NCBI GenBank assembly: GCA_023475265.1
Contig: JAMCWE010000095.1
Coordinates: 1 to 64,000 of the forward strand
DNA from: Bacteroidota bacterium
Lineage (GTDB): Bacteria > Bacteroidota > Ignavibacteria > Ignavibacteriales > Ignavibacteriaceae
DNA length: 64,000 nt
Direction of reading: 5' to 3'
Below the pieces are notes generated by a model. That model saw only the letters and a list, made by a program, of their open reading frames with translations, searched no databases and was not told the origin of the DNA. Positions 57,619 through 64,000 of the stretch are shown in pieces (within the stretch, counting starts at the first letter, position 1; each line of letters begins with the position of its first letter). The translations under genes were made by a program, and so were the position numbers.

Positions 57619-58380
57619 ATGAGATTGAAGAAAAACCCAGTTAAAAATCTTCATAAGTTACTCATCCTTTATTTCTTCCTTTGGATTATACTTTTCGAAT
57701 TTATTTTACCAGTTAACAATATCTTACCAAAACCATCGGTAGTTTTATTATCGTTCAGCGCATTATGGAATGATTATAAATTGCCGGTTAATTTTTTATC
57801 AACAGTTGGTGCAATTTATATTTCATTAGCTTTAGCTTACATAATAGTATGGTCGATAAAAATCTATTTGATTAAAAGTAATCACTTTATATCTGATTTT
57901 TTATTATCTCTGCATTGGTTTTCAAATTTCATTCCCTGGATTATTCTGGGAATATTTTTGATCTATTGGCTGCCTTCATCAGAATACATAAAGTATATTT
58001 TCGTTTTTCTTATATCTTTCTTTTTTATCATAGTTCACTTGAAACAAGAATTAAGAAATGTTAAAAAAGAATATATCGAATCGGCAATATCATTAGGTGC
58101 TGATGAAAAAACTATTTCAAAAAAAATTATTTGGAAATCCATACAGCCACAATTATTTAACCATTTAATAACTTTGCATTTTCAACTATGGTCGCTCGCA
58201 ATCATTTTTGAATTTATTAGCGGCGGATATGGCTTGGGCAATATTTATAGGCGTGCTTTAGAATATAAAGATATATCAGCAATTTTTACTATTACGATAA
58301 TAACAGGAATTACAATTTTTCTGGGATCACAGTTAATCAAATATTTGAAGAATAAATTTTATCATTGGAGTTTTGTTTGA
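57619..58380 (+). CDS. ABC transporter permease, NitT/TauT (BPD_transp_1) type
   Basis: A 253-residue inner-membrane permease with six helices. The EAA-type ATPase contact loop is visible as EYIESAISLGADEKTISKKI, followed by GLGNIYRRALEYKDI. This family normally imports nitrate, taurine or aliphatic sulfonates with a periplasmic binding protein. No binding-protein gene is in the window. The downstream ATPase gene starts by overlapping its stop (TGATG). The partner ATPase is degenerate, so the transport function is doubtful. Confidence 0.85.
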   Translation: MRLKKNPVKNLHKLLILYFFLWIILFEFILPVNNILPKPSVVLLSFSALWNDYKLPVNFLSTVGAIYISLALAYIIVWSIKIYLIKSNHFISDFLLSLHWFSNFIPWIILGIFLIYWLPSSEYIKYIFVFLISFFFIIVHLKQELRNVKKEYIESAISLGADEKTISKKIIWKSIQPQLFNHLITLHFQLWSLAIIFEFISGGYGLGNIYRRALEYKDISAIFTITIITGITIFLGSQLIKYLKNKFYHWSFV

Positions 58381-59138
58381 TGCCGGAATATTTATTGGAA
58401 GTAAATAATATTTCCAAATCTTTTCATGGATTAGCTGGCGCTAAGCAATTAATACTTGAAGAGATTAACTTCAAAATAAAATCAATTTCAAAAGATGGAA
58501 ATATAATTTCAATTTTGTCTCCAACTAATTCCAGTAAAACCGAACTTCTTAAAATTATATCGGCAGTTGAAAAACCATCAGGCGGGGAAATAATTTTACT
58601 TGGTAAAAAATTTGAAAAACCAACCGGCGAGATTGTTCTGATTCCGGAAAAACCATCTTCATTTCCGTGGATGAACGTTAAGCAAAACATTGAATTTGCT
58701 TTAGGTCTAAATAACAAAGATCAGGTAAAGCAAGAAAAAATTAATGAAATTATTTCATTAGTCGGATTATCAGGTTATGAAGAACATTTTCCAAATGATA
58801 AAAGTTTAGGATTCAGATTTAGAATTTCTTTTGCCCGCGCTTTAGTAGTTAATCCAAAAATAATTTTGATAGATGAGCCACTAAAAAATATACATGGCGA
58901 AACAAAAAAAGAAATTATTACGCTCATCTGTAGTCTAACAAAACAATTGAATCTGACAATTCTTATTTCAACAGCTAATGTTAATGAAGCAATATCGATT
59001 TCAAATAAAATAATTTTAATGAATTCACATCCAGGTAAAACTATTGGGGAGTTTGAAATTGATAAAACACAAAATTTGCAAGAGCACACCGATTACTTTA
59101 TTTCAGTAAAACATTCTATAGAAAAATCATTTAAATAA
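58380..59138 (+). CDS. Degenerate ABC-type ATPase-like protein paired with the permease
   Basis: A ~252-residue protein of the NitT/TauT ATPase family; ATG 58380 overlaps the permease stop as TGATG. Walker B (IILIDEP, Asp165-Glu166) is kept. The other motifs are broken. Walker A is SPTNSSKT (47-54) instead of GxxGxGK[ST], lacking the glycines. The Q-loop Gln is lost (LIPEKPSSFPW). The signature LSGGQ is KSLGF (141-145), and the switch His is Ala199 in ISTANVNEA. The fold appears intact, but normal hydrolysis is unlikely. It could be a decayed or regulatory subunit. Confidence 0.8.
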   Translation: MPEYLLEVNNISKSFHGLAGAKQLILEEINFKIKSISKDGNIISILSPTNSSKTELLKIISAVEKPSGGEIILLGKKFEKPTGEIVLIPEKPSSFPWMNVKQNIEFALGLNNKDQVKQEKINEIISLVGLSGYEEHFPNDKSLGFRFRISFARALVVNPKIILIDEPLKNIHGETKKEIITLICSLTKQLNLTILISTANVNEAISISNKIILMNSHPGKTIGEFEIDKTQNLQEHTDYFISVKHSIEKSFK

Positions 59139-59252: not shown

Positions 59253-60797
59253 ATGCACAACAAACAAGATGAACTTATTAAAAGAAAAGAAAAAGCAAAG
59301 CTTGGCGGCGGTATTGATAAAATTGAAGTCCAACATAAAAAAGGAAAACTAACTGCTCATGAAAGAATTGAACTTCTAGTTGATGAAGGCAGCTTTGAAG
59401 AAATGGATATTTTTGTTAAACATCGCGCAACAGATTTCGGACTGAACAAACAACATTATCCTGGAGATGGCGTAGTTACCGGGTTTGCAAAAATTAACGA
59501 AAAGCCGATTGCATTATACAGTCAGGATTTTACTGTTTTCGGTGGTTCATTATCAGAAGCCCATGCGGAAAAAATTGTAAAAATTATGGAAATGGCAATG
59601 AAGCTTGGCGTTCCGGTTATTGGACTAAATGATTCCGGTGGTGCTAGAATTCAAGAAGGTGTAGTGAGCTTAGGAGGTTATGCTGATATTTTTCTTCTTA
59701 ACACTTTAGCGTCAGGAGTTGTTCCGCAAATTTCTGTAATACTTGGTCCTTGCGCTGGCGGAGCTGTTTATTCACCAGCGATTACAGATTTTATTTTCAT
59801 GGTAAAAAATACAAGTTATATGTTTGTAACAGGACCTAACGTTGTTAAAACTGTAACTCATGAGGAAGTTAGCTTTGAAGATTTAGGCGGCGCTGAAACT
59901 CATGCAGTAAAAAGTGGGATTGCACATTTCATCAATGAAAATGAAATAGAAACTTTATTAAATGTTCGTCGTCTAATGAGCTTTCTGCCTCAAAATTTTA
60001 TGGATAAACCGGTAGATACAGAATTTGATTCTGAAAATATTTTACCGGATGAAAGGTTGAATGAAATAATTCCGGAGAATCCTAATAAACCTTACGATAT
60101 GAAGCAGATTATAAATCTGGTAGTTGACAACAATAATTTTCTTGAAGTTCACACAAATTATGCTGAAAATATCATTGTCGGTTTTGCAAGGATTGGCGGG
60201 ATGTCGGTCGGGATTGTCGCAAATCAACCAGAAGTTCTAGCTGGAGTGTTAGATATTAATGCTTCTGTTAAAGGCGCGAGATTTGTTAGATTTTGTGATG
60301 CGTTTAATATACCTCTTTTGGTATTAGTTGATGTACCAGGATTTCTACCTGGTACAGAACAAGAATGGAATGGTATTATTAGGCACGGTGCTAAACTTTT
60401 ATATGCTTTTTGTGAAGCAACAGTACCCAAAGTAACAGTGATTACACGAAAAGCATACGGCGGTGCGTATGATGTTATGAATTCAAAACATGTTAGAGGC
60501 GATTTTAATTTTGCCTGGCCAACAGCCGAAATTGCAGTTATGGGTCCAAAGGGCGCTGTTGAAATTATATTTAAAAAGGAAATCTCAAATTCTGAAAATC
60601 CGGAAGTAGAATTAGAAAATAAATTATCCGAATTTATAGAGAAATTTGCAAATCCTTATATTGCAGCAGAAAGAGGTTATGTAGATGATATTATTTTACC
60701 TAAAGATACAAAAATCAGATTGATAAATGCGTTTAAAATTTTAAAAACAAAAGTGGATAAAAATCCAAAGAAGAAGCATGGAAATATTCCTTTATGA
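59253..60797 (+). CDS. Acyl-CoA (propionyl/methylmalonyl-type) carboxylase beta subunit
   Basis: A 514-residue carboxyltransferase that moves a carboxyl group from biotin to an acyl-CoA. Characteristic motifs are [63 protein letters not shown] and a GGAYDVMNS region near the C-terminus. The biotin carboxylase/carrier subunit is not adjacent in the window. It could belong to propionyl-CoA carboxylase or the decarboxylase MmdA; sequence alone does not settle this. Confidence 0.93.
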
Positions 60798-63779: not shown

Positions 63780-63864
63780 AATTAATTTCAATGTTTTATA
63801 ACTTTAACTTGAATTGTTTTCTATACTTTTTGTTCTTATAAAATTATAAATAAAATTTAACACG

Positions 63865-63957
63865 TAGCCGTTAGGGGTGTTGCCCCGTTTGCCCGGGATG
63901 ACTGAGAACAAACCCTAAAACCTGATCTGGATAATGCCAGCGTAGGGAAACGGGCTA
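63865..63957 (+). promoter_or_regulatory. TPP riboswitch (THI element) aptamer
   Basis: The aptamer shows the conserved thi-box blocks in order: the 5' P1 arm TAGCCGTT (63865-63872), AGGGGTG, the CTGAGA core (63902-63907), then ACCTGATCTGGATAATGCCA, GCGTAGGGAA and the 3' P1 arm AACGGGCTA (63949-63957). The P1 arms pair with one bulged base. It would bind thiamine pyrophosphate and control a downstream thiamine biosynthesis or transport gene outside the window. Confidence 0.93.
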
Positions 63958-63972
63958 AAAAAATAATTAAGC

Positions 63973-64000
63973 TTTTAGCCGTTTCTATGAACGGCTTTTT
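63973..64000 (+). terminator. Riboswitch terminator with competing anti-terminator
   Basis: AGCCGTT (63977-63983) pairs perfectly with AACGGCT (63990-63996) around TCTATG, followed by T's to the window end. The segment TTTTAGCCGTTTC (63973-63985) can alternatively pair with GAAACGGGCTAAAA (63947-63960), which contains the 3' P1 arm of the aptamer. TPP binding holds that arm in P1 and frees the terminator, which predicts transcriptional shut-off by TPP. Confidence 0.85.

Follow-up and report, generated by a model that had tools for sequence, protein, structure and literature searches.

A permease-linked ABC nucleotide-binding domain with degenerate ATPase motifs, conserved across one order of Bacteroidota

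The window, by which we mean the whole 64,000-nucleotide stretch analysed here, carries a permease gene followed directly by a gene for an ABC nucleotide-binding-domain (NBD) protein, with a carboxyltransferase gene downstream. The features of the pair and its immediate context are the following.

57619..58380, forward strand: BPD_transp_1-type permease, 253 aa, partner of the degenerate NBD; EAA loop EYIESAISLGADEKTISKKIIWK retained; PF00528, 57 bits
58380..59138, forward strand: NBD protein, 252 aa; Walker A, Q-loop, signature and switch all non-canonical
58518..58541, forward strand: Walker A position, residues 47-54, SPTNSSKT; glycines gone, K53 and T54 retained
58647..58649, forward strand: Q-loop position, E90 replacing Gln, in IPEKPSSFPW
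58800..58823, forward strand: signature position, residues 141-148, KSLGFRFR replacing LSGGMRQR
58872..58877, forward strand: Walker B D165-E166, in ILIDEP, retained in the window
58974..58976, forward strand: switch position, A199 replacing His, in STANVNE
59253..60797, forward strand: biotin-dependent carboxyltransferase (mmdA/PccB type), downstream context gene

The permease TGA and the NBD ATG share one base (TGATG) and the NBD frame (58380-59138) runs without internal stops; the coupling overlap, the intact frame and the retained EAA loop described in an earlier sequence-only reading all hold. The NBD scores 60.2 bits against Pfam ABC_tran (PF00005, cut-off 25), which places it in the ABC ATPase superfamily fold, and the permease scores 57 bits against BPD_transp_1 (cut-off 26.4). 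AlphaFold2 gives a confident fold for the NBD (pLDDT 92.2) and a permease model of pLDDT 87. The top solved-structure matches of the NBD model are the ATPase subunits NrtC/D and CmpC/D of the cyanobacterial NrtBCD and CmpBCD systems (Z about 30, 23% identity), while those of the permease model are NrtB and CmpB (Z about 19). Because both models are nearest to subunits of these nitrate and bicarbonate importers, with which the NBD also shares FPW after the Q-loop, the pair is taken to descend from a NitT/TauT-type importer, and its permease and NBD match that type by sequence and structure; the NitT/TauT-type fold proposed earlier is thus borne out.

The window NBD differs from a competent ABC ATPase in having SPTNSSKT for the Walker A consensus GxxGxGK[ST], no Q-loop Gln, no switch His and no LSGGQ signature, and it agrees with one in its Walker B Asp-Glu (LIDEP). 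The four departures had been read correctly from the window sequence (SPTNSSKT, a replaced Gln, KSLGF, His to Ala), with the refinement that the Lys and Thr of Walker A remain, and of the canonical signature residues the Ser, the second Gly and the following Arg are still there. Sequencing error can be ruled out as the source of the changes, because the sister species has the losses as well, a glycine-less Walker A (AQNSLSKT) included; that the same Q-loop, signature and switch changes recur in 77 orthologues argues against chance as well.

Orthologues of the NBD were found by protein search in 13 of 13 genomes of the window's genus and, at E 1e-30, in 33 of 80 genomes of its family (f1), while an order-wide profile search at E 1e-42 returned 106 of 164 genomes, a tally that includes some canonical paralogues such as L156 and L157. 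Retention of the pair is near-universal in the families f2 and f3. When the search was widened to 391 sampled genomes of the class and 395 of the phylum, matches from beyond the order were all weaker and none was a clade member; the five of them that were read out (L172 to L176) are canonical NitT/TauT proteins. A search of openly accessible literature found no description of this NBD-permease clade. In genome G104, two differing degenerate NBD copies (L178, L179) lie on separate contigs, each cut by a contig end, and could represent a duplication or a mixed assembly.

We read 77 orthologues from three families of the order residue by residue (30 of f1, 9 divergent f1 and 38 of f2/f3) against seven canonical NitT/TauT outgroups, and the reading frame is intact in every one of them. 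The switch His and the first signature Gly are absent from all 77 members and present in all seven outgroups, the Q-loop Gln survives in two members (L037 and L162) versus six outgroups, and the signature Leu is replaced in nearly all of the clade. Other parts of the signature are kept or newly fixed: Ser142 in 69 of 77, the second Gly (Gly144) in 72 and Arg148 in 77, with Phe145, new in the clade, in 73 and the new residues F145 and R146 both nearly fixed. The P-loop Lys is retained in 65 of 77 and most P-loops are near-canonical (APxGSGKS, the first Gly mostly Ala), so the expectation that the window's substitutions would be conserved in homologues holds for the Q-loop, the signature and the switch but fails for Walker A. 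Walker B, reported as kept, is intact in the window; its Asp is found in 74 members, but retention of its catalytic Glu, seen in only 36, is no family property. Within f2/f3, most members have APxGSGKS and 27 of 38 have the catalytic Glu. No clade member, sister species included, has a canonical Q-loop, signature and switch. A canonical ancestor at the same locus can also be set aside, as the most divergent copies (L067, L069, L070, L074, L078, L079, L087 and L088) are all degenerate.

The tree, a quick one built without the Walker A columns, leaves several deep branches unresolved and has some long rows; it unites the 77 members in a single clade against the canonical outgroups (SH-aLRT 100). 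On it, the P-loop Lys changed at least 9 times and the catalytic Glu at least 12 times, the window and L016, also glycine-less in Walker A, are sisters (support 97), and several genera have long branches. Judged from the aligned residues, the departures in Q-loop, signature and switch predate the diversification of the order, whereas the loss of Walker A is late, repeated and lineage-specific; the two are separable because P-loop changes recur on the tree and most orthologues are near-canonical there. The idea that all four motifs were lost together as one selected set is thereby ruled out.

The suggestion that the NBD is selected rather than decaying stands. Pairwise dN/dS (NG86) is 0.06-0.24 for the NBD in 13 pairs and 0.06-0.23 for the permease in the pairs where it is computable, with single values being rough because synonymous distances exceed 1 in several pairs. 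Pairs without Walker A are no exception, at 0.20 for the window and L016, 0.14 for L017 and L018 and 0.24 for L043 and L044. These low ratios, together with the single 77-member clade and the conserved new motif residues, support an NBD under selection, and a lone pseudogene is ruled out by the ratios and the clade-wide conservation. The most conserved NBD columns are W97, L130, Y133, R148, N103, F145 and D165. Within the window's genus, S93-W97, G144-R146 and R148 are invariant, and among the 252 columns ranked by conservation those of the P-loop come 90th to 205th. In importers of the ABC type, the segment following the Q-loop lies opposite the coupling loops of the permease, as does the helical subdomain, and we therefore infer that conservation follows the permease and C-loop face of the domain, not its nucleotide site.

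The pair occupies one conserved chromosomal site, with the order MtnA, RecO, DegP, AroC, a metallo-beta-lactamase-fold hydrolase, permease, NBD, mmdA-type carboxyltransferase and LysM/SLT lipoprotein in nearly all genomes. In every complete locus the permease lies directly 5' of the NBD, the two genes overlapping by a median of 4 bp, and this strict co-occurrence and gene overlap make the NBD-permease partnership well supported. Among the loci counted (66, including the canonical system L157), mmdA directly follows the pair in 58 of 65, and the median gap of 11.5 bp in these 58 suggests co-transcription with the pair; in the window the gap is 114 bp. In many f1 genomes the pair is missing and the hydrolase is followed directly by mmdA (e.g. 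L082, L083, L084, L090 and L097), and the pair is therefore dispensable. In the genus g8, a gene for a DUF6588 protein (PF20230, tested for L070) lies between hydrolase and permease (6014-7087 in L070, 5491-6567 in L074); from its predicted start and its repeats, the product looks like one that is secreted or sits in the outer membrane, and not like a binding protein. That the pair regulates the LysM/SLT lytic transglycosylase next to it, in the manner of FtsEX, was considered for its linkage only and is speculation, since L151, L155, L161 and L164 have no LysM gene and the permease is not FtsX-like.

As first noted for the neighbourhood in the window, no substrate-binding protein gene lies nearby, and none was seen at any locus read. 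With an NMT1-type profile and PF13379 as the search models, the window's genome gave NMT1 matches only to PhnD, beside canonical PhnC and PhnE, and to HisG, and no PF13379 match; both were absent from G126, G107 and G140, and G129 gave one PF13379 match, inside a 654-aa frame. The PhnCDE system is an in-genome contrast, in that it pairs the same two superfamilies (NBD and BPD permease) but has fully canonical motifs and an adjacent binding protein. NrtBCD and CmpBCD likewise combine ATPase subunits with a substrate-binding component, whereas the clade has no binding protein and has replaced its Q-loop, signature and switch residues. SaoA and SaoP (NF040729 and NF040733) are the top NCBIfam profile matches for NBD and permease, but membership is ruled out by scores far under the curated cut-offs (139 versus 360 and 38 versus 295 bits) and by the missing binding protein gene. 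No second NBD gene was found at any locus read. In the single-contig genomes G129 and G140, the only BPD permeases apart from that of the pair are encoded by two neighbouring genes, perhaps pstC and pstA, and a canonical NBD partner encoded elsewhere is therefore unlikely.

Our best explanation, which we hold with somewhat better than even confidence, is that the pair derives from a NitT/TauT importer, is specific to the order, has no binding protein, is probably non-hydrolytic and was ancestrally ATP-binding, its NBD now being kept mainly as a partner of the permease. A permease and NBD importer resembling NrtBCD/CmpBCD would have lost its substrate-binding protein, and the NBD, before the order diversified, would have lost its Q-loop Gln, canonical LSGGQ signature and switch His. 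A symmetrical NBD dimer, as inferred for the pair, would then have no complete ATPase site, and because of this ATP hydrolysis is most likely absent in the clade. With a near-canonical P-loop, the Asp of Walker B and the Ser and Gly of the signature, the ancestor and most present members could nevertheless bind ATP, and their dimer could close. Loss of the P-loop in several lineages, that of the window among them, suggests that nucleotide binding became dispensable too, and the window lineage NBD probably binds ATP weakly or not at all; it would then remain as a cap, structural or allosteric, on the coupling loops of the permease. Since a degenerate NBD has been kept with its permease across the whole order, the domain is probably no longer an engine but has been repurposed, perhaps as a switch or a cap. 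The role of permease-bound regulator or sensor put forward in the earlier reading may also apply, the partnership with the permease being the part of it that is well supported. More tentatively, at a little under even odds in our judgement, an order-wide family gave up ATP hydrolysis, and several of its lineages nucleotide binding, while being selected for a new role, e.g. as a gated facilitator, a sensor or a signalling cap. Heterodimeric exporters with one degenerate site, such as TM287/288, TmrAB and CFTR, where ATP at the degenerate site is thought to act as glue (PMC7756269), likewise have conserved degenerate motifs under selection; however, they keep one canonical hydrolysing site, whereas a homodimer of the clade would have none, and its partner is an importer-type permease.

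Some members may have a weak or atypical ATPase activity, given the retained signature Ser and second Gly and the catalytic Glu in 36 of 77. That the NBD is a still-active, unorthodox ATPase, in a pair importing a solute without a classical binding protein, is unlikely, for although f2/f3 members mostly have APxGSGKS, with the Glu in 27 of 38 and Ser142 and Gly144 kept, the switch His is found in 0 of 77 and the Gln in 2, the window lineage has no P-loop glycines, other members have no P-loop Lys, and no binding protein gene lies nearby. We regard it as quite unlikely that the pair is a relic in slow erosion, left from an importer whose binding protein was lost and now vanishing lineage by lineage. 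The absence of the pair from many f1 genomes, the long branches in several genera and the repeated changes of P-loop Lys (at least 9) and catalytic Glu (at least 12) are readable in that way, but dN/dS of 0.06-0.24 in all 13 pairs, intact frames in 77 of 77, the permease also being kept, a new motif invariant across the order and near-universal retention in f2/f3 tell against it. A mixed dimer with a canonical ATPase encoded elsewhere, on the pattern of NrtC/NrtD, is very unlikely, since the clade NBD would spoil both composite sites (its own Gln and His are gone and its altered signature would serve the partner's), no locus has a second NBD gene and two complete genomes contain only two other BPD permeases, and this in spite of the nearest structures, NrtBCD and CmpBCD, which pair two different ATPase subunits, presumably as a mixed NBD pair, judging by their entry names.

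Few natural ABC systems of bacteria are documented to have both ATP sites disabled and an NBD still selected alongside its permease. The clade, which runs from a near-intact P-loop to none with one conserved permease, offers a natural series for studying what an NBD contributes beyond hydrolysis.

Two genes downstream, the pair is followed by a thiamine uptake operon that consists of a TPP riboswitch, a TonB-dependent receptor, thiamine pyrophosphokinase and an SSF symporter (L049). The riboswitch (RF00059, 65.4 bits; window 63863-63965, forward strand) is directly 5' of the receptor gene, which runs from window position 63987 onward. No TPP riboswitch was found 5' of the permease in 40 loci scanned, about 20 of them with short flanks only, and a ThiXYZ-type importer of thiamine precursors, considered because many loci have this operon nearby, is not supported, as the riboswitch operon is separate from the pair and neither a riboswitch before the permease nor a binding protein gene accompanies it. 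In five loci in which mmdA is missing (L149, L160, L162, L168 and L158), the pair is followed directly by the LysM gene and then by the TonB receptor, and a TPP riboswitch lies between these two in four of the five; L168 carries one too. The operon of riboswitch, TonB receptor, pyrophosphokinase and SSF symporter is conserved in many genomes of the order and is akin to the OMthi-pnuT-tnr3 operon of Bacteroides (PMC5613172), except that it has an SSF-type symporter where Bacteroides has PnuT.
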